DNA of 40,958 nt from Alphaproteobacteria bacterium (GTDB lineage: Bacteria; Pseudomonadota; Alphaproteobacteria; Puniceispirillales; Puniceispirillaceae), in the NCBI GenBank assembly GCA_009920665.1, contig RFZL01000019.1:1-40958 (forward strand), given 5' to 3'. Of the stretch, positions 6,234 through 16,551 are shown piece after piece. Under the pieces are notes generated by a model that saw only the letters and a program-made list of their open reading frames with translations, was not told the DNA's origin and did not search any database. The position numbers and the translations under genes were made by a program. The stretch's first letter is position 1; each line of letters opens with the position of its first letter.

Positions 6234-7910
6234 ATGACCCCCAAGACGGACATCGAGATCGCGCGTGCCGCAACCAAGCTGCCGATCCAGCAGATTGGCG
6301 ACAAGCTTGGCATTCCGGCGCAGGACCTTCTTCCCTTCGGCCATGACAAGGCGAAATTGTCAGCCGAGTTCATTGCCGCGGCTTCGGATCGCGAGGATGG
6401 CAAGCTGATCCTGGTGACGGCTATCAACCCGACCCCGGCCGGCGAGGGCAAGACAACCACCACGGTCGGGCTGGTCGACGGGCTGAACGCCATCGGCAAG
6501 CAGGCCACCGTCTGTATCCGCGAGGCTTCGCTTGGTCCCTGTTTCGGGATGAAGGGTGGCGCTGCTGGTGGCGGTTATGCGCAGGTGGTGCCGATGGAGG
6601 AAATGAATCTCCATTTCACCGGTGATTTTCACGCCATCACATCGGCCCATAATCTGCTGTCGGCGATGATCGACAACCATATCTACTGGGGCAACGAGCT
6701 GGAGATCGATCAGCGGCGCGTGACCTGGCGCCGCGTCGTCGATATGAATGACCGCGCGCTGCGTGATATCGTGTCCAGTCTTGGCGGCGTGTCGAACGGC
6801 TTTCCGCGGCAGGCCGGCTTCGACATCACCGTCGCCTCCGAAGTGATGGCCATCCTGTGCCTTGCGACCGATCTTGAGGATCTGCAGAAACGCCTTGGCG
6901 ACATCATCGTCGCCTATCGCCGCGACCGCTCGCCGGTCTATTGCCGTGACATCAAGGCAGATGGCGCGATGACGGTGCTGCTGGCGCAGGCGCTGCAGCC
7001 GAACCTTGTGCAGACCCTCGAGAACAACCCGGCCTTTGTGCATGGTGGCCCGTTCGCCAATATCGCGCATGGCTGTAATTCGGTGATCGCCACGAAGACG
7101 GCGCTGAAACTGTCCGAGTATGTTGTCACCGAGGCCGGTTTCGGGGCCGATCTCGGTGCCGAGAAATTCATGAACATCAAATGCCGCAAGGCCGGTCTGG
7201 CGCCAAGCGCCGTTGTCCTTGTGGCCACCATCCGGGCGATGAAGATGAATGGCGGCGTCGCGCGGGCCGACCTCGGCGCCGAAAATGTCGCCGCGGTACA
7301 GGCGGGGTGCGCCAACCTCGGACGGCATATCGAGAATCTGAAATCCTTTGGCGTGCCGGTTGTCGTGGCGGTGAACCATTTCACCGGCGATACCGATGCC
7401 GAAATCGCCGCGCTGAAGGCCTATGTCGCCGAGCAGGGAAGCGAGGCCATCATCTCACGGCACTGGGAACTTGGTGGCGAGGGCGCGAAGGAGCTTGCCA
7501 TCCGCGTTGCCGAAATTGCCGACGCCGACATGGCCAGTTTCGCGCCAATCTACCCCGATGACATGCCGCTGTTCGAAAAAATCGAGACCATCGCCAAGCG
7601 AATCTACCGTGCCGACGAGGTGCTGGCCGACAAGAAAATCCGCGACCAGCTGCGACAATGGGAAGATCAGGGCTATGGTCATCTGCCGGTCTGTATGGCA
7701 AAGACGCAATATAGCTTCAGCACCGATCCCAATCTGCGCGGCGCGCCAACCGGCCATTCGGTGCCGGTCCGCGAGGTCAGGCTGTCGGCCGGGGCCGGTT
7801 TCATCGTCGCCATCTGCGGCGAGATCATGACGATGCCGGGCCTGCCGCGCGTCCCGTCTGCGGAAAATATCTGTCTGAACGAGGCCGGTGAGATCGAAGG
7901 TCTGTTCTGA
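6234..7910 (+). CDS. fhs: Formate--tetrahydrofolate ligase
   Basis: A 558-residue enzyme that makes 10-formyl-tetrahydrofolate from formate, ATP and tetrahydrofolate, and can run in reverse to yield ATP and formate. Visible family features are the ATP loop [14 protein letters not shown] (about residues 67-80), the block [27 protein letters not shown] cut here into [15 protein letters not shown] and DNHIYWGN, and the C-terminal [15 protein letters not shown]. Full length. GAAGGA lies about nine bases before the ATG. It converges with soxG, with five bases between the two stop codons. Together with sarcosine oxidase, which produces 5,10-methylene-tetrahydrofolate, it probably completes oxidation of methyl carbon or supplies formyl groups; FolD would be needed and is not in the window. 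Confidence 0.97.
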
Positions 7911-7915
7911 TCCGG

Positions 7916-8476
7916 CTAGAGTGATGCCGCGGCGGTGGTCAGAGCGTGGTGAAGTGACTGTGCCGAGGCGCGCGGGCCATAGATGGTGAAGCCGATATAG
8001 GCGTCGCGGCAGACCAGAACACACAGCATATGATGAACAGGTGTCCGCACCGCCGCGCCGCCCTGCATCAATCGCGTATCGGCGGCGCTGAGCCGCTCCA
8101 GCATGGCCGGTACATCCTTGCCGGTGATGTCGAACCGGACCCACGCATCGCTCTGGTCGGTGATCGAGGCCGCCGCCCCGAAGCTGGCGGCAAGCCTGCC
8201 AGCAAGATCAGTTGCGCCGGTTTCGGCCTCGACAAGGAACTGGTCGGGCCCCATCCAGATCACCCCATGCGCATCGGTGCCGGCCCGCTGTCCAGGTGCC
8301 GGCAGGTCGGTGCCAAGGACCTTCCCGACGGCCTTTTCAAAATCGGCCATCCTGCCGCGCCGCATCGCCAGCGAGGCAAGACAGGTGTCGGCGATCTCGG
8401 CAATCCGGATGCCGCCGATGGTCTCGTCATAGGCGGTGATGCCGCCAAGCGCGGTGATTGCTGTCAGGCTAGCCAC
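7916..8476 (-). CDS. soxG: Sarcosine oxidase, gamma subunit
   Basis: A 186-residue gamma subunit of the heterotetrameric sarcosine oxidase. It has the family layout: a weakly conserved start, then VIWMGPDQFLVEAE and ITDQSDAWVRFDITG in the middle and DAYIGFTIYGPRASAQSLHHAL near the end. The fold is related to the aminomethyltransferase (GcvT-like) fold, but the subunit has no known catalytic residues and serves assembly. Its first codons overlap the last eight bases of soxA, so the two are translationally coupled. It is the last gene of soxBDAG. It stops on TAG inside a CTAG at 7916-7919, five bases from the end of fhs. Confidence 0.9.
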   Translation of the reverse strand: MASLTAITALGGITAYDETIGGIRIAEIADTCLASLAMRRGRMADFEKAVGKVLGTDLPAPGQRAGTDAHGVIWMGPDQFLVEAETGATDLAGRLAASFGAAASITDQSDAWVRFDITGKDVPAMLERLSAADTRLMQGGAAVRTPVHHMLCVLVCRDAYIGFTIYGPRASAQSLHHALTTAAASL

Positions 8477-11420
8477 GGAGTCGCTCTCCCTCGGGATCGA
8501 TGAAATGCGGGCTGCAGATGCGGGCGCGGGCTGATCGTCCTTCGAGCGGGTTCATCAGCCGCACCATCTCACCATGCCGGTCTGCGCCACGGGCGATGAA
8601 GCCAAGCCCGATCGAGGCCCCGATATGCGGCGACCAGGCAGCCGAGGTGACATAGCCCTCATCATGCGCCGGGTCGACCGGCGTGCCCTCGGCGAACAGA
8701 TGCGCGCCGGCGGTCACATTATCGCCATCGATGGCCTGCAGCCCGACAAGACACAGCCCGTCCTCGGCGACAAGCGCCTCGCGCCCGGCCAGCACCGCGC
8801 CGATGCTGTCCTTCTTCGTCGAGACCATCTTCGCCATGCCAAGATTGCGCGCGGTGATCGTGCCGTTCAGTTCATTGCCGGTAACGTGCCCCTTTTCGAC
8901 CCGCATGACGCCAAGCGCCTCGGTGCCATAGGGGGTAATGTCATAGGCATCGCCGGCCGCCATCAGCGCGCGGATCATCGCATCGCCATAGCGCGACGGC
9001 ACGGCGATTTCATAAGCCAGCTCGCCGGAGAAGGAGATTCTGAACAGCCGCGCCATCACACCGCCACAGACGCTGATCGTCCCGCAGGCCATAAAGGGAA
9101 ACGCCTCGTTGGAAATGTCATGTTGCGGGTCGACAACCACCTGCAGGACGCGCCTTGCGTTCGGGCCGGCTACGGCGAACTGAGCCCAGCTGTCGGTGGC
9201 CGAAATCAGCTGCACATCCATGTCAGGGCGCAGACACTGGCGCACGAATTCCAGATGCCGATAGACGCCGACGGCGTTCGCCGTGGTGGTGGTCATCAGA
9301 TAGTGCGTCTCGCCAAGCCGCGCCGTGGTGCCGTCATCCATCACCATGCCATCCTCGCGCAGCATCAGCCCATAGCGCGTCTTGCCAACCGGAAGGGTGG
9401 AAAACATGTTGCTGTAGACAAGGTCGAGAAAGGCGCCGGCATCACTTCCCTGGATATCGATCTTGCCAAGCGTGCTGACATCGCACACCCCGACCGAGCG
9501 GCGGGTGGCCAGAACTTCGCGATCGACCGATTCGCGCCAATGTGTTTCGCCCTCGCGCGGGAACCATTGCGCGCGAAGCCAGCTTCCCGCCTCGACAAAG
9601 ACGGCCCCTTGCTCGGCCGCCCAGTGATGCGATGGCGGCAGGCGTGTTGGCCGAAAATCGCGGCCGACCGAGCGGCCGGCAAAGGCGGCGATCGGCGTTG
9701 GCGTGTAGGGCGGGCGGTAGATGGTGGTGCCGGTCTCGGCGATGGTCTTTCCTGTCAGCTCGGCCATCACGGCAAGGCCGAGGACGTTCGAGGTGCGGCC
9801 CTGGTCACCTGCCATGCCAAGCGTGGTGTAGCGTTTCAGATGTTCGACAGCGCGGAAATTCTCCTGATGCGCCAGCCCGACATCCTTCACCGTGACGTCA
9901 TTCTGCTGGTCGAGCCAAGCGCGTTTTGTGCCGCCGACATGCCATAGCGGGGTGATGGTAACGGGCGCATCATCGGCCTCAGGCAGCGGCGCCGTTTTCA
10001 CCTTCATGCCAAGCTCGGCAAGCTGCGCCAGCGCCTGGTCCCGCCCGTCGGCAAGTGCGCTGGCGGTGCTGAAAATGCCGCGTGCGGCGCCGGCGACGGC
10101 AAGGCCGGGCGGCACCCCTTCGCCGGGGATGAAGGCGGCGATATCCTCCTGCCATTGCGGCCGGCCGCGATGATGGCATGTCAGATGGACATTCGGGTTC
10201 CAGCCGCCGGACACGGCCAGCGCTCCGCAGGACAGATGTTTACGTCCGCCATCGGCAAGCCGCAGCGTGACATGCCCGATGCCGCGCCGTCCGCTGCTGT
10301 TGCTGACAACGGCGCCGGCGAACAGTTCGGCGATATTGCTTGCCGGCGCGTCGGGCCGCGAATCTATAATGGCGGCAATCTCCACCCCGGCGGCGGCAAG
10401 GTCGGCTGCCGTGCGGTGCCCGTCATCATTGTTCGTGAAGATGGCGATGCGTTCGGCCGGCGCGGCGGCCCAGCGATTGACATAGGCGCGCATGGCGCCG
10501 GCCTGCATGATCCCCGGCCGGTCATTATTGTCGAAGGCGATCAGCCGTTCGGTCGCGCCGGCGGCCAGGATCGCGCGCTTTGCATAGACCCGCCACAGAA
10601 TCTGGCGCGGCGTTCCCGCGCGCGGCACTGGCAGATGGTCGGACACACGTTCCAGAACGCTGTAAATGCCGTGGTCGAAGATGCCGATGGCGGTGCTGCG
10701 CGGCATCACCCGTACATTCGGCAGGCCGGCAAGCTCGGCTGCTGCCTGCGCCGCCCATTCATTGCCGCTCAGGCCGCCGACAGATTCGCGCTCCATCGTC
10801 AGCCGGCCACCGGCGCAAAAATCCTCATCGACAAGAATCACCTCGGCACCGGCGCGGCCGGCTGTCAGCGCTGCCATCAGCCCGGCCGGTCCGGCCCCGA
10901 TGACAAGAAGATCGCAATGCCGGAAGCCGCGATCATAGACATCCGGATCAGGATCGCCCGACAGCGCGCCAAGCCCGGCAGCCTGCCTGATCAACGGTTC
11001 ATAGACACGCTCCCAGAAGGCTTTCGGCCACATGAAGGTCTTGTAGTAGAAGCCGGCACCGAGAAAGGCCGAGAACCGGTCATTGATCCCCATCAGGTCA
11101 AAGCCGAGAGAGGGAAACCGGTTCTGGCTGCGGGCCACCAGCCCGTCATGAAGTTCGGTCATGGTGGCGCGGCTGTTGGGCTCGCGGCGCGCGCCCTCGC
11201 GAAGCTCGACAAGGGCGTTCGGTTCCTCCGACCCGGCGGATATGATTCCGCGCGGCCGATGATATTTGAACGACCTTCCGACCAGCCGGACACCGTTCGC
11301 CAGCAGCGCCGAGGCAAGGGTGTCGCCGGCGAATCCCCCATAGCGCCGCCCGTCAAAGGTGAAGTCGAGCGGCGCTTCGCGGTCGATCAGCCCGCCATCC
11401 AGACGGTTCACCTGCGTCAT
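8469..11420 (-). CDS. soxA: Sarcosine oxidase, alpha subunit
   Basis: A 983-residue alpha subunit, the expected size. Domain order: an N-terminal ferredoxin-fold region (about 1-100) lacking iron-sulfur cysteines; an NAD-binding/FAD-like region opening with LLVIGAGPAGLMAAL near residue 170; a linker; and a GcvT-type tetrahydrofolate domain from about 600 to the end (VGVCDVSTLGKIDIQGSDAGAF, split here as VGVCDVSTLGK and DIQGSDAGAF; ending with PHFIDPEGERLRG). In known enzymes the oxidised methyl carbon of sarcosine travels through a cavity to this domain and becomes 5,10-methylene-tetrahydrofolate. Overlaps soxD by four bases (ATGA) and soxG by eight. Cytoplasmic. Confidence 0.97.
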   Translation of the reverse strand: MTQVNRLDGGLIDREAPLDFTFDGRRYGGFAGDTLASALLANGVRLVGRSFKYHRPRGIISAGSEEPNALVELREGARREPNSRATMTELHDGLVARSQNRFPSLGFDLMGINDRFSAFLGAGFYYKTFMWPKAFWERVYEPLIRQAAGLGALSGDPDPDVYDRGFRHCDLLVIGAGPAGLMAALTAGRAGAEVILVDEDFCAGGRLTMERESVGGLSGNEWAAQAAAELAGLPNVRVMPRSTAIGIFDHGIYSVLERVSDHLPVPRAGTPRQILWRVYAKRAILAAGATERLIAFDNNDRPGIMQAGAMRAYVNRWAAAPAERIAIFTNNDDGHRTAADLAAAGVEIAAIIDSRPDAPASNIAELFAGAVVSNSSGRRGIGHVTLRLADGGRKHLSCGALAVSGGWNPNVHLTCHHRGRPQWQEDIAAFIPGEGVPPGLAVAGAARGIFSTASALADGRDQALAQLAELGMKVKTAPLPEADDAPVTITPLWHVGGTKRAWLDQQNDVTVKDVGLAHQENFRAVEHLKRYTTLGMAGDQGRTSNVLGLAVMAELTGKTIAETGTTIYRPPYTPTPIAAFAGRSVGRDFRPTRLPPSHHWAAEQGAVFVEAGSWLRAQWFPREGETHWRESVDREVLATRRSVGVCDVSTLGKIDIQGSDAGAFLDLVYSNMFSTLPVGKTRYGLMLREDGMVMDDGTTARLGETHYLMTTTTANAVGVYRHLEFVRQCLRPDMDVQLISATDSWAQFAVAGPNARRVLQVVVDPQHDISNEAFPFMACGTISVCGGVMARLFRISFSGELAYEIAVPSRYGDAMIRALMAAGDAYDITPYGTEALGVMRVEKGHVTGNELNGTITARNLGMAKMVSTKKDSIGAVLAGREALVAEDGLCLVGLQAIDGDNVTAGAHLFAEGTPVDPAHDEGYVTSAAWSPHIGASIGLGFIARGADRHGEMVRLMNPLEGRSARARICSPHFIDPEGERLRG

Positions 11421-11701
11421 GACCGGCCTCCCGCTGTCACGACATCCGAGGCAAGTTCGACAGCCAGAATCTCATGCGTGGCGGTGTCGCGCGTGACAAC
11501 CAGCCAGCTGCGGTCGCCCATCTCATGGTACCAGAGTTCGCGATGCGTACCCGCCGGGTTGTCGCGAAGATACTGATAGTCGAAGAATGTCTCGGCGGCA
11601 TCGTCGGCGGACGCATCGGGCCGCTGCAGCAGGCTGGCATCGCCAAGACAGGTGAATTCCTGTGAGTCCCGTGGTCCCAGAAGCGGGTGTTCGATGATCA
11701 T
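11417..11701 (-). CDS. soxD: Sarcosine oxidase, delta subunit, variant without the usual zinc cysteines
   Basis: A 94-residue delta subunit in the standard place between soxB and soxA. Recognisable blocks are GPR near residue 9, FFDYQYLRDNPAGTHRELW in the middle, and LVVTRDTATHEILAVEL. In the structurally known enzymes this subunit binds zinc through a CPYCGPR motif plus a later His and Cys. Here the motif reads HPLLGPR (His5, Leu8), and the later pair is His59 and Asp63. Cys18 is the only cysteine. The zinc site is therefore changed or lost. Fifteen-base spacing to soxB and four-base overlap with soxA support the operon. Confidence 0.9.
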   Translation of the reverse strand: MIIEHPLLGPRDSQEFTCLGDASLLQRPDASADDAAETFFDYQYLRDNPAGTHRELWYHEMGDRSWLVVTRDTATHEILAVELASDVVTAGGRS

Positions 11702-11715
11702 GTCGTTACCGCTCC

Positions 11716-12978
11716 TCAGTGCAGGTTGGGCTGCGCGCCCGACCCCTTTTCATCAATCATCATGCCGCGTCTGAACCTGTCGAGCCGGAAAGCGGTGGCG
11801 GTGTCGTGAGGCGTGTCTGTCGCCAGAAGATGGGCAAAGCAATATCCCGAGGCGGGGGTCGCCTTGAAGCCGCCATAGCACCAGCCGCCATTGAAATAGA
11901 GACCGTCGACAGGCGTCCGATCGATGATCGGTGAGCCATCCATACTCATATCCATGATGCCGCCCCACATCCGCACCATACGGGCGCGCCCGATCATTGG
12001 CATCAATGTCATGCCGCCCTCGCAGACATCCTCGACCACCGGCAGATTGCCGCGCTGGGCGTAGGAATTATACATGTCGATATCGCCGCCAAAGACCAGC
12101 CCGCCCTTGTCGGACTGGCTGATATAGAAATGGCCGGCGCCATAGGTGACGACACCGGGGATCACCGGCTTCAACCCCTCCGAGACGAAGGCCTGCAGGA
12201 CATGGCTTTCGATCGGAAGCCGCATTCCGGCAGCCTGCATGACGCGGCTGCTGCTGCCGGCAACGGCGCAACCGACCTTGCGGGCGGCGATGAAGCCGCG
12301 GCTTGTCTCGACACCGGTGCAGCGCCCGTTCTGGATGCGAAAGCCGGTGACCTCGCAATTCTGGATGATGTCGACGCCGCGCCGGTCGGCGCCGCGCGCA
12401 TAGCCCCAGGCCACCGCGTCGTGGCGCACGGTGCCACCGCGGCGCTGGACAAGTGCGCCCTGAATGGGAAAACGGCCATTGTCGAAATTCAGGAAGGGGA
12501 TCTCGGCGCGAAGCTGCGCGGCGTCGAGAAGCTCGGCATCGGCGCCATGCAGAATCATCGCATTGCCGCGCCGCCGATAGGCGTCGCGCTGCCCGTCGGA
12601 ATGATAGAGGTTATAGACCCCGCGCTGGCTGACCATGGCGTTGTAGTTGAGATCCTGTTCCAGCCCTTCCCAGAGCTGCAAGGAGAATTCGTAGAAAGGT
12701 TCATTGCCGGGAAGAAGGTAGTTCGAGCGGATGATGGTGGTGTTGCGGCCGACATTGCCGCCACCGATCCAGCCCTTTTCCAGAACCGCCACCGAGGCCT
12801 CGCCATAGCGGCTTGCCAGGTAATAGGCTGTCGCCAGCCCATGGCCACCGCCGCCGACAATCACGAAATCATAGGCCTGTTGCGGCTCCGGATCACGCCA
12901 GGCAGGCCGCCAGCCACGGTTTCCGGTAAGACCTTCCCGCAGGATCCGGAATCCGGAATACCCTCCCATCTTGCGCAT
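11716..12978 (-). CDS. soxB: Sarcosine oxidase, beta subunit
   Basis: A 420-residue flavoprotein that oxidises sarcosine to glycine with release of hydrogen peroxide. The FAD-binding dinucleotide fold is FVIVGGGGHGLATAYYLA (about 38-55), followed by GGGNVGRNTTIIRSNYLLP. The block GGTVRHDAVAWGYAR (His186) lies where, as I recall, family members attach FMN covalently; the residue match should be confirmed. The C-terminal FNGGWCYGGFKATPASG is also family-typical. I chose MRKMGG because GAGG lies a few bases before it and related proteins begin with a similar short run; a longer reading adds 12 residues. First gene of the operon; a TTGACA hexamer (minus strand, 13034-13039) lies 55 bases upstream. 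Confidence 0.96.
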   Translation of the reverse strand: MRKMGGYSGFRILREGLTGNRGWRPAWRDPEPQQAYDFVIVGGGGHGLATAYYLASRYGEASVAVLEKGWIGGGNVGRNTTIIRSNYLLPGNEPFYEFSLQLWEGLEQDLNYNAMVSQRGVYNLYHSDGQRDAYRRRGNAMILHGADAELLDAAQLRAEIPFLNFDNGRFPIQGALVQRRGGTVRHDAVAWGYARGADRRGVDIIQNCEVTGFRIQNGRCTGVETSRGFIAARKVGCAVAGSSSRVMQAAGMRLPIESHVLQAFVSEGLKPVIPGVVTYGAGHFYISQSDKGGLVFGGDIDMYNSYAQRGNLPVVEDVCEGGMTLMPMIGRARMVRMWGGIMDMSMDGSPIIDRTPVDGLYFNGGWCYGGFKATPASGYCFAHLLATDTPHDTATAFRLDRFRRGMMIDEKGSGAQPNLH

Positions 12979-13059
12979 GACACCTCGCGTTCGCCGCAGC
13001 TGTTTCCCAATCACCAGACAGCCACCATTGTCGTGTCAATTCAAGTCGGAAGACGCCAG

Positions 13060-13106: not shown

Positions 13107-15641
13107 TCAGCTGTCGCGAAGCAGCGGTGCCGGCTTGCGGCCAAGGGTGCGTACGGCGCCGGCCAGCCCCAGCATCGCCGTTGCCGCGGCGCCGACCATG
13201 GTGGTCATCAGCACAAGCGTGAAATCAAGTTCGAAATCGGCATTCAGAAAGCCCTCGATCAGGCCCCAGCTGGCGAGGCTGCCGATGAGGGCCGCCGCCA
13301 CCGCGGCCAGCATGCCGAGAAGCGCATATTCAAGGAACCAGGCGATGGCGATGGAAAGACGGGTGGCGCCGAGAACCTTCAGGATCACCGAGTCGGCAAG
13401 CCGCTGCGCCTCGGTGCTGGCCACGGTGCCGGCAAGAACGGCGATTCCGGCAACAAGTGTGACCAGTGCCGTCAGCTGCACCGCCGCGCCAAGCAGGCCG
13501 ATCACCCGCTGTGCCGTGGACACAGCCTCGCGCACCGAAATGGCCGAAATATTGGAAAAGGCGGCGGCGACATTGCGGTCAACCGCGATCGCCGCGTCAT
13601 CATTGTCGACGCGTGTACTGGCCATCCAGCTGTGCGGTGCCGCTTCCAGCAGCCCCGGTGACAGGACGAAGACGAAATTGATGCTGAAACTTTCCCATTC
13701 AACCGCGCGGATGCTGGTGATCTCGGCGCTGACCGACCGGCCGAGGACATTGAAGGTGACGCTGTCACCAATCCAGACACCAAGCTCGCGCGCCTCCTCC
13801 TCGGACATCGAGGCCTGCGGTGGGCCGGCATAATCGGCCGGCCACCATGCACCGGCGATGATCTCGCCACTGTCCGGCGGGGTCGCCGACCAGGTCAGCG
13901 CACGGTCACCGCGGAGCACCCAGGCCGATCCGCCCTTCATGTCGAATTCCTCGGCCGGTTTGCCGCCGAGGCTTGTCACACGTCCGCGCAGAATCGGTGT
14001 CTTCGAGACCGAGGTCACACCCGGCGTATTGGTGGTGATCGCGATGAAACGGTCGATCTGGTCCGGCTGGACATCGATGAAGAACCAGGCCGGCGCGTCC
14101 TCGGCAACCCTGGTGTCGATCTGCCGGCCGATATTGGCCTGCGACAGCGACACGGTGACAAGAACCGACAGGCCAAGGCCAAAGGCGATGACAATGGCGC
14201 GCACCGGCGATCCCGGCCGCGTGATGGCCGACAGCGCCAGCCGCGCCGGCACATAGGACGGCACCGGCAACCGGCGCAGCGCCATCAGCAACAGCTCGCC
14301 AAGCCCGGCCAGAAGCACGATCGCCGCCAGCGAGCCGCCGATGAAGGTCAGTGTCAGAAGCAGGTCGCGTGTCGCCACAAAGGCCAGACCGGCAAGGCCA
14401 AGCAGGGCGGCAAGCGCCATCATCAGATAGACCGGCCGCGGCCGCCCGCCAGGCATGCTGTTCAGGCGCCTGAACAGATTTGCCGCCCGCACCTCTTCGG
14501 CCTTGGCAAGTGGCCATAGCGCGAACAGGAAAGAGGTGACAATGCCAAAGCCGGCCGCGACGATGAGAGGCAGAGGATAGACCGATACCTTGATCGGGAC
14601 GGTGACATAGGCGGATAGCAGATCGACGGCGAAGACCGGCGCGATGGCGGCCAGCCCGACACCCAGCCCGACACCCAGCCCGGCGATCAGCATCACCTGC
14701 AACAGATAGATCCGGAAAATCAGACGCGATGGCGCGCCAAGGCATTTGAAGGTGGCGATCACCGGCATGCGGCTGCCAAGCCAGGCCCGCACCGCGCCAG
14801 CGACGCCGAGCCCGCCGATCAACAGGGCCGTCAGCCCGACAAGCACCAGAAACACCTCGGTCCGGTCAATGAAGACATCAAAACCGGGGGCGGCATTCAT
14901 GACATCGCGCACGCGCACACCATCGTCACGCCCGGCCGTCCGCAGCGCGGTGACAGCCGCCTCGCGGTCGCCCTGATTCGCCAGAAGCAGCCTTGTCCGG
15001 TGGGTGATCATGGCGCCGGGCTGGTCAAGGCCGGTCATCTCGAGTGTGGCGCGCGACATCAATACGCGCGGCCCGAAGGTCACGAAACTGACCGACCTGT
15101 CCGGCTCATAGGTCAGCGTGTCGCTGACCGTCAGGTCGGCCTCGCCGATCCGCACCCGTGAGCCGGGCGCAATCTCGAGCGCGCGCGCCATCTGTGGGTC
15201 GATGACGATCATGCCGTCGCCAAGCGCATCGGTGACGGCCCCGCCGCCGCCAAGCGTCGCCGTGCCGACAAGAGGCCAGTTGCCCTCAACCGCCTTCAGC
15301 GCCACCAGCTTGCGCGCGTCATCTGTCTGCAGCATCGCGCGCATCTCGAGGCTTCGTGACAGCGTGCCGTATTCCGCGGCGATTGAGGTGACATTCTGTG
15401 GTGTCGGCCGGTAGAGGCTTCGCAGCTCCACATCGCCGCCAAGAAGAAGCTGTGCATTGCCGGCAATGCCGGTGCGCATCGCCTCGGCAACCGACCCGAC
15501 GGTGCCGATGGCGGCAACACCAAGCATCAGCGCACCGAGAAACACCCGGAAACGCGCTACCGAGCCGCGGATTTCACGCCGCGCCATCCGCCAGGCGAGG
15601 CGCCAGCCCGAATCTCCGCCAGTCATGACGTCATCAGCCAT
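13107..15641 (-). CDS. ABC transporter permease, FtsX/YbbP-like, with two MacB/FtsX modules
   Basis: An 844-residue membrane protein. One membrane helix lies near the N terminus (FRVFLGALMLGVAAIGTVG), followed by a large periplasmic MacB-core-like domain, then a three-helix FtsX block (VFLVLVGLTALLIGGLGVAGAV onward), further helices, a second periplasmic domain and a last FtsX block near the C terminus. This is the YbbP type. It pairs with the ATPase encoded just upstream. In E. coli ybbA-ybbP also diverges from tesA. The substrate is unknown; a role with lipids or lipoproteins is often suggested. The start is uncertain: the first ATG after the ATPase stop is used, eight bases away, with no clear ribosome site. 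A 12-base tandem repeat at 14652-14682 adds GLGV units. Confidence 0.85.
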   Translation of the reverse strand: MADDVMTGGDSGWRLAWRMARREIRGSVARFRVFLGALMLGVAAIGTVGSVAEAMRTGIAGNAQLLLGGDVELRSLYRPTPQNVTSIAAEYGTLSRSLEMRAMLQTDDARKLVALKAVEGNWPLVGTATLGGGGAVTDALGDGMIVIDPQMARALEIAPGSRVRIGEADLTVSDTLTYEPDRSVSFVTFGPRVLMSRATLEMTGLDQPGAMITHRTRLLLANQGDREAAVTALRTAGRDDGVRVRDVMNAAPGFDVFIDRTEVFLVLVGLTALLIGGLGVAGAVRAWLGSRMPVIATFKCLGAPSRLIFRIYLLQVMLIAGLGVGLGVGLAAIAPVFAVDLLSAYVTVPIKVSVYPLPLIVAAGFGIVTSFLFALWPLAKAEEVRAANLFRRLNSMPGGRPRPVYLMMALAALLGLAGLAFVATRDLLLTLTFIGGSLAAIVLLAGLGELLLMALRRLPVPSYVPARLALSAITRPGSPVRAIVIAFGLGLSVLVTVSLSQANIGRQIDTRVAEDAPAWFFIDVQPDQIDRFIAITTNTPGVTSVSKTPILRGRVTSLGGKPAEEFDMKGGSAWVLRGDRALTWSATPPDSGEIIAGAWWPADYAGPPQASMSEEEARELGVWIGDSVTFNVLGRSVSAEITSIRAVEWESFSINFVFVLSPGLLEAAPHSWMASTRVDNDDAAIAVDRNVAAAFSNISAISVREAVSTAQRVIGLLGAAVQLTALVTLVAGIAVLAGTVASTEAQRLADSVILKVLGATRLSIAIAWFLEYALLGMLAAVAAALIGSLASWGLIEGFLNADFELDFTLVLMTTMVGAAATAMLGLAGAVRTLGRKPAPLLRDS
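14652..14682. repeat. In-frame 12-base tandem repeat in the permease gene
   Basis: The unit cagcccgacacc occurs twice in full (14652-14663 and 14664-14675) and then as a 7-base partial copy. Read on the minus strand it gives repeated GLGV in a membrane segment. Such units expand or shrink by slippage without breaking the frame. Confidence 0.8.
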
Positions 15642-15649
15642 CGGCACGG

Positions 15650-16405
15650 TCACGCGGCGCGATGTGTCGAGGAGGCGCGGTCCTCGACGATGCGGCCATC
15701 CTCGATGGTCAGGACCCGGCTGCATTGCTCGGCAAGCCCGGGGTCATGCGTGACAAGGACCAGCGCGGCGCCGGCTACCGCCGTGGCCTCGAACAGGGTT
15801 GTGATGACCTTTTCACTGGTTCCGCTGTCCAGATTGCCTGTCGGTTCGTCGGCAAGCAGGATCTTCGGACGCGGGGCAATCGCCCGCGCGATGGCGACCC
15901 GTTGCTGCTCACCGCCTGACATCTGGTCGGGAAGGTGCGTTTTCCGGTGCCCGAGACCGACCGATGCAAGCGCCTCTGCCGCCAGATCCGCGGCGTCGGG
16001 GTGCCCGGCGAGTTCCAGCGGCACGGCCACATTCTGCAGCGCCGTCATCGAGGGGATCAGGCGGAAGGCCTGGAAGACGATCCCGACCTTGTCGCGGCGA
16101 AGCGCCGCCAGCGCGTCCTCTCCCATGCTGGTGATATCCTGGCCGGCAAGATGGATGTTGCCGCCGGTCAGGCTTTCCAGCCCGGCCATGATCATCAGCA
16201 GGCTTGTCTTGCCGGCGCCGCTCGGGCCCAGCACGCCGACCGTCTCGCCGCTGCCGATCCGCAGCGAGATGCTGCGCAGGATATCCACCATGCCGTCGGC
16301 GCTGGCCAGCGACAGGCAGGCATTGTCGAGTGCGATGATGGCGTCGCTGGCGTCGCTGTCAGCGGCACCGCCATTCGAACCGGGGGATGTGGTCTGGTCT
16401 GACAC
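15650..16405 (-). CDS. ABC transporter ATP-binding protein, YbbA/LolD-like
   Basis: A 251-residue ATPase that powers the permease next to it. Walker A is GPSGAGKTS, the signature is MSGGEQQRVAIARA, and Walker B is ILLADEPTGNLD; the switch His is in VLVTHDPGLAEQC. The sequence is closest in style to the LolD/YbbA/MacB group. I use the GTG start at 16405 because AGGAAGG lies about ten bases before it. An ATG at 16480 would add a 25-residue tail that lacks family similarity. The gene diverges from the esterase, with about 210 bases between, and is followed after eight bases by the permease. Confidence 0.9.
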   Translation of the reverse strand: MSDQTTSPGSNGGAADSDASDAIIALDNACLSLASADGMVDILRSISLRIGSGETVGVLGPSGAGKTSLLMIMAGLESLTGGNIHLAGQDITSMGEDALAALRRDKVGIVFQAFRLIPSMTALQNVAVPLELAGHPDAADLAAEALASVGLGHRKTHLPDQMSGGEQQRVAIARAIAPRPKILLADEPTGNLDSGTSEKVITTLFEATAVAGAALVLVTHDPGLAEQCSRVLTIEDGRIVEDRASSTHRAA

Positions 16406-16551
16406 GAATGTCGATCCTTCCTGGCAAGCCGGTTGCCCTGACAAGCTGGCCATCGGTGGACGGCCATCGGTGAAAGGCATTTGTCATGACCCGTCCCCGG
16501 CATGACGGGACCTGTTGATCTGGACTAACATCAGCCAGCTACATAAAGTGA

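Follow-up and report, generated by a model that had tools for sequence, protein, structure and literature searches.

A SoxD variant with His, Leu, His and Asp at the zinc-ligand positions is widely spread in alphaproteobacterial sarcosine oxidase-type operons

The sarcosine oxidase delta subunit (SoxD) encoded in a 40,958 bp stretch of an alphaproteobacterial genome (contig RFZL01000019.1, positions 1 to 40,958; the window) belongs to a real and widely spread enzyme variant, present in well over a hundred alphaproteobacterial relatives, that has His5, Leu8, His59 and Asp63 (H-L-H-D) in place of a C-C-H-C zinc set. Our preferred explanation, to which we give a probability of about 0.6, is that these operons encode a working N-demethylating enzyme of the sarcosine oxidase type, forming a paralogous subfamily in which a metal-free polar site with packing of Leu8 takes the place of the delta-subunit zinc. 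The earlier note described the operon as intact, and all four genes are found on the minus strand of the window in the order soxB-D-A-G, with the following features (soxD codon coordinates are reckoned from the ATG at 11701):

11716–13014, minus strand: soxB, beta subunit; TIGR01373 694.7 bits, above cut-off; aligned to 2gag_B; His of RHDAV and Lys of GGFK present
11417–11701, minus strand: soxD, delta subunit, 94 aa; ATG start; identified by PF04267, alignment, and column and distinct-gene counts
11678–11701, minus strand: soxD codons 1–8, with His5 at 11687–11689 and Leu8 at 11678–11680; the place of CPxC in canonical SoxD
11513–11527, minus strand: soxD codons 59–63 (HEMGD); His59 retained, Asp63 where Cys is expected
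8469–11420, minus strand: soxA, alpha subunit; TIGR01372 1337.8 bits, above cut-off; 4-base overlap with the end of soxD
7916–8476, minus strand: soxG, gamma subunit; TIGR01375 63.7 bits, below cut-off of 143.95; 2gag_C match with E of 3.3e-9
6234–7910, plus strand: formate--tetrahydrofolate ligase; PF01268 889 bits; convergent with soxG

Together these form a heterotetrameric sarcosine oxidase gene set, with the alpha and beta subunits scoring above the model cut-offs and gamma below its own. The conserved beta-subunit His, which we take to be the site of covalent FMN attachment, and the conserved Lys, to which we likewise presume a role, are kept in 90 of 90 variant, 116 of 116 C-C-H-C and 14 of 14 C-N-H-T SoxB sequences compared. 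A YbbA/YbbP-like ABC exporter pair lies upstream of soxB on the same strand (13110–16480, minus); its YbbP-like permease is present at 7 of 106 variant loci, the window counted.

The HPLLGPR segment near the N terminus of the window SoxD aligns with CPNCGPR of the solved delta subunits 1vrq_D (Corynebacterium U-96) and 2gag_D. The alignment is nearly full-length and the later His is shared, but the solved proteins have Cys6, Cys9 and Cys63 where the window SoxD has His, Leu and Asp. The zinc ligands of the delta subunit, which we take to be Cys6, Cys9, His59 and Cys63, thus match window residues His5, Leu8, His59 and Asp63, and the CxxC...H...C set is absent, although metal-capable side chains are still at three of the four former ligand positions and all four residues are fixed. 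The replacement of CPYC by HPLL and of the later Cys by Asp63 with retention of His59, as proposed in the earlier note, is therefore borne out both by this alignment and by the clade columns described below, and the translation agrees with it that Cys18 is the sole cysteine. Cys18 is poorly kept, being Cys in five and Tyr in 69 of the 86 variant clade sequences. The protein passes the Pfam SoxD model PF04267 (100.1 bits; gathering cut-off 27), and its score of 83.8 bits against the NCBIfam SoxD model TIGR01374 is below the cut-off of 116.5; a second variant SoxD (L272) scores 78.6 bits with the latter. Two trivial explanations can be set aside. First, a misread start codon is not the cause, as the 16 in-frame residues upstream of the ATG have no Cys, so that a longer N terminus would not supply the cysteines as the earlier note had considered, and they overlap the end of soxB. 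Second, a sequencing error is contradicted by the nearest relative among the matches listed, which is 94% identical and has the same residues, and by the agreement of 129 genes.

A predicted structure of the window SoxD (pLDDT 88.7, pTM 0.77, from 53 sequences) matches the fold of the solved delta subunits, with Z of 9.7 to 2gag_D (89 residues aligned, rmsd 3.5) and 9.6 to 1vrq_D; the fold matches after these have Z of 5.6 and less. In the model, strands end at residues 5 and 59 and are followed by loops at 6–8 and 60–65, a predicted arrangement in keeping with a zinc site built of two knuckles. The title of the 2gag structure calls the enzyme a metalloenzyme.

We examined the distribution of the four residues in 211 SoxD sequences, comprising 131 places from a class-wide search (SoxD in 74 of 190 genomes) and the best 80 loci of a window-seeded search of named genomes, which gave at least 593 candidates with at least 449 encoding a relative. 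By alignment column there are 106 C-C-H-C, 86 H-L-H-D, 14 C-N-H-T and two C-N-H-S sequences, together with single instances of C-H-H-S, A-H-H-S and D-L-N-H; none of the 211 is intermediate between H-L-H-D and C-C-H-C. Six of the 131 sequences drawn without the window as bait are H-L-H-D, the window counted. Within the order of the window, matches scoring at least 95 bits occur in 57 of 136 genomes, the next being 67 bits, and the 47 of these genomes that were read are all H-L-H-D, down to 58% identity. In a phylum-wide sample, nine of 398 genomes score above 130 bits, including that of the window, and all are in the same class; the next score is 101, and the next 21 loci (L222–L242) are all C-C-H-C. 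These nearest C-C-H-C relatives are 49–62% identical to the window SoxD over the matched part and have surroundings very similar to it (e.g. ELWYHGAGCRSWLVVTRDT in L224), but keep all three cysteines. In a family of Rhodobacteraceae type SoxD is present in 145 of 149 genomes, and 14 hand-picked genomes that were read are all C-C-H-C with no variant among them. Plasmid records of Paracoccus denitrificans PD1222, Phaeobacter and Ruegeria encode relatives that are 69–75% identical and annotated as sarcosine oxidase subunit delta, and the P. denitrificans sequence and one from Phaeobacter inhibens have the same four residues. Two Parasedimentitalea marina plasmids (NZ_CP033221.1 and NZ_CP033222.1), with two and three matching places respectively, encode SoxD that is 73.4% identical to that of the window. 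The suggestion in the earlier note that the clade is perhaps marine holds in part, as the record titles also include Cypionkella aquatica, Gemmobacter, Sinirhodobacter populi, Hongsoonwoonella zoysiae and Defluviicoccus, which we take to be non-marine.

The four residues are strictly conserved within the variant. All 86 clade sequences have H/L/H/D by alignment column, as do 129 of 129 distinct genes, although this larger set was picked by a text pattern that contains His5 and Leu8, so that independent counting for these two relies on the 86 of 86 and on the sequences read in the window's order. On the tree of the 129 genes there are no amino acid steps at any of the four sites, with 38, 41, 29 and 15 codon steps at sites 5, 8, 59 and 63 respectively. 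The four sites are not alone in being fixed, as no variation is seen among the 129 genes at 26 of the first 92 residues. By these sequence comparisons the ligand site is one that was rebuilt and is maintained, and not one in decay.

A separate HPLLGPR clade, raised as a possibility in the earlier note, is recovered in trees of the beta subunit. With FastTree and 165 SoxB sequences the H-L-H-D operons form one clade inside the C-C-H-C operons with a starred support of 98, and in a more careful IQ-TREE analysis of 39 rows the clade has support of 94/88, which is below the limit for a star. The latter analysis also rejects a topology that groups every C-C-H-C row on one side of a split (p-AU 0.0002), two of the C-C-H-C rows being long-branched. 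The root was placed on a group with CPLNG-type SoxD that itself does not have the full cysteine set, which leaves the direction of change on the deepest branch unfixed. Several starred branches among C-C-H-C rows separate the variant from this root, and for it the straightforward interpretation is that the cysteines were lost. The minimum number of changes of the C-C-H-C label is three on the FastTree tree when starred branches are used, and two on the smaller tree.

Two other departures from C-C-H-C are placed elsewhere in the SoxB tree. The first is the CPLNG-type SoxD (18 sequences: L161, L183, L184, L188, L193, L194, L196, L197, L198, L200, L201, L203, L205–L209 and L211), which resembles the window variant in not having a complete zinc set, but is mostly C-N-H-T/S and forms a separate deep clade (17 rows). 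The second is a single SoxD in L204 (approximately 6884–7234), with Asp5, Leu8, Asn59 and His63, which is a mirror image of His5/Asp63 in the window with the same Leu8. The L204 genome is 1.2 Mb and is the only representative of its family and order in the collection searched; no further Asp5/His63 SoxD was found in a class search in which 137 of 385 genomes matched and 29 other loci were read, all of them C-C-H-C. Viral contigs contain no relative of either the window or the L204 SoxD. We know of no job assigned to the delta-subunit zinc, and the series of C-C-H-C, H-L-H-D, C-N-H-T/S and one D-L-N-H represents a natural test of its role. The series extends to culturable bacteria (P. denitrificans and P. 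inhibens), and the purpose of the zinc and life without it are directly testable. We also note that the single annotation "sarcosine oxidase subunit delta" spans subfamilies that can coexist in one genome.

A mechanism consistent with these observations is that an ancestor with the C-C-H-C zinc set underwent a single exchange to His5-Leu8-His59-Asp63 on the branch to the variant clade. The resulting site would bind no zinc, Leu8 would occupy the core at the position of the first knuckle, and a hydrogen-bonded or ionic pair of His5 and Asp63, perhaps joined by His59, may take over from the metal in tying the two loops to each other. With its loops held by this polar pair the delta subunit would still dock in the complex, in which sarcosine or a related N-methyl amino acid would be oxidised and the formaldehyde handed to tetrahydrofolate. 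The metal-free reading is suggested by three observations: a fourth position that is Leu in all members read, the lack of a clear new partner ligand, and the L204 mirror pair. A direct contact between residues 5 and 63 would yield a swap such as the Asp5/His63 of L204, and the mirror pair supports a putative contact, although a single sequence such as this may have arisen by chance. As for compensating ligands, columns specific to the clade, defined by a residue fixed in at least 95% of variant sequences and in no more than 10% of sisters (24 for alpha, 23 for beta and nine for gamma), are limited to a Gly in alpha and a Met in beta, with gamma having none, and the partner subunits thus have no obvious new ligand. 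The earlier note proposed that either a structural zinc has been lost or another ligand set is used, and this is supported in outline by the sequences.

The strongest rival to the metal-free reading is that His5, His59 and Asp63 hold zinc or another divalent ion, with the fourth position taken by water or a residue of another subunit. These residues are metal-capable, invariant, and at three of the old ligand positions, and the idea is a serious though unlikely one: the fourth position is Leu in 129 of 129 genes, the partner subunits have gained no obvious ligand (with just nine sisters for gamma), and L204 has the His/Asp pair yet no His59. A bolder proposal along the same lines, which we consider distinctly improbable, is that His5, His59 and Asp63 form a rebuilt, open three-ligand iron or zinc centre, by which a structural zinc knuckle would have become potentially reactive within a complex that handles formaldehyde.

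Another explanation is that the variant is a zinc-sparing isoenzyme that replaces the canonical SOX under zinc scarcity, in the manner of the cysteine-free ribosomal protein paralogues described in PMC5007448, PMC7363858 and PMC13343924. In its favor, the genome of the window encodes both SoxD forms, the second being C-C-H-C (CPHC...H...C; L001:1453–1872), and 40 of the 57 genomes of the window's order with a variant-level match hold at least one further SoxD match. However, although this paralogue is of the same family and in the same gene order as the window operon, its SoxB belongs to a different large section of the SoxB tree, and its neighbours are different. Nearby are a trimethylamine-methyltransferase-like gene (228 bits, short of the 525-bit cut-off) and a gene whose 826-residue product has one half resembling SoxB and the other resembling SoxA/GcvT, the arrangement of dimethylglycine dehydrogenases. 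By these neighbours the paralogue looks like a betaine-pathway SOX and the window operon like a different isoenzyme. In addition, some genomes seem to hold the variant as their sole SoxD; candidates are G169 (99% complete), with one SoxD by Pfam search (L195), and G754 (100% complete), with one match in a protein search. Upstream of soxB nothing is above chance, with a Zur-type box within three mismatches in one of 83 regions and approximately 2.9 expected from shuffles, using a consensus that may differ from the host lineage's own box. We therefore regard zinc sparing as a poor candidate. Simple decay, with a redundant subunit or site drifting and no longer mattering, is scarcely credible, since the NCBIfam score below cut-off is set against zero amino acid steps with 15–41 codon steps at the four sites, 26 invariant residues, and retention of the whole operon.

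Returning to the preferred reading of a working N-demethylase with a metal-free delta site, gene neighbours support its putative function in feeding one-carbon metabolism. In P. denitrificans, soxBDAG (PDEN_RS24425–24410, plasmid 1 of PD1222) is followed by folD and purU and a GlxA regulator is encoded divergently; a regulator similar to this is present at 56 of 106 variant loci, and one GlxA-like regulator has its best score to GbdR (227 bits, below the cut-off of 480). FolD, PurU or formate-tetrahydrofolate ligase genes are present at only 13 of 106 variant loci, the ligase at seven of them, with the window included in both counts and the flanks being short at most loci. On a P. inhibens plasmid the neighbours are an acyl-CoA dehydrogenase, dmdD and a BCCT transporter. 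In one genus of the window's order the operon is bordered by ABC and TRAP transporter genes that run on the opposite strand. Rhodobacteraceae SoxBDAG is described as the sarcosine step of betaine degradation in a passage of PMC7574528, and a Ruegeria proteome table in PMC9938194 includes SOX proteins; the SOX passages of these two sources mention neither zinc nor two subfamilies, and sarcosine is not mentioned in the main text of PMC11306105. Among the open-licence literature matches listed, we found no paper on zinc in the SoxD delta subunit or on the H-L-H-D variant.

There are two further minor observations. First, SoxD-like stretches with internal stops in two genomes of 1.2–1.3 Mb (G856:C1:445129–445401 and G938:C1:802587–802862) are possible broken copies; each genome also carries a SoxD-like stretch without stops. 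Second, there are five matches to a Zur-type box across the window with 0.78 expected, none of them near the sox genes; AT-rich, palindrome-like matches at 715–729 and 855–869 lie near an OmpA-like gene.
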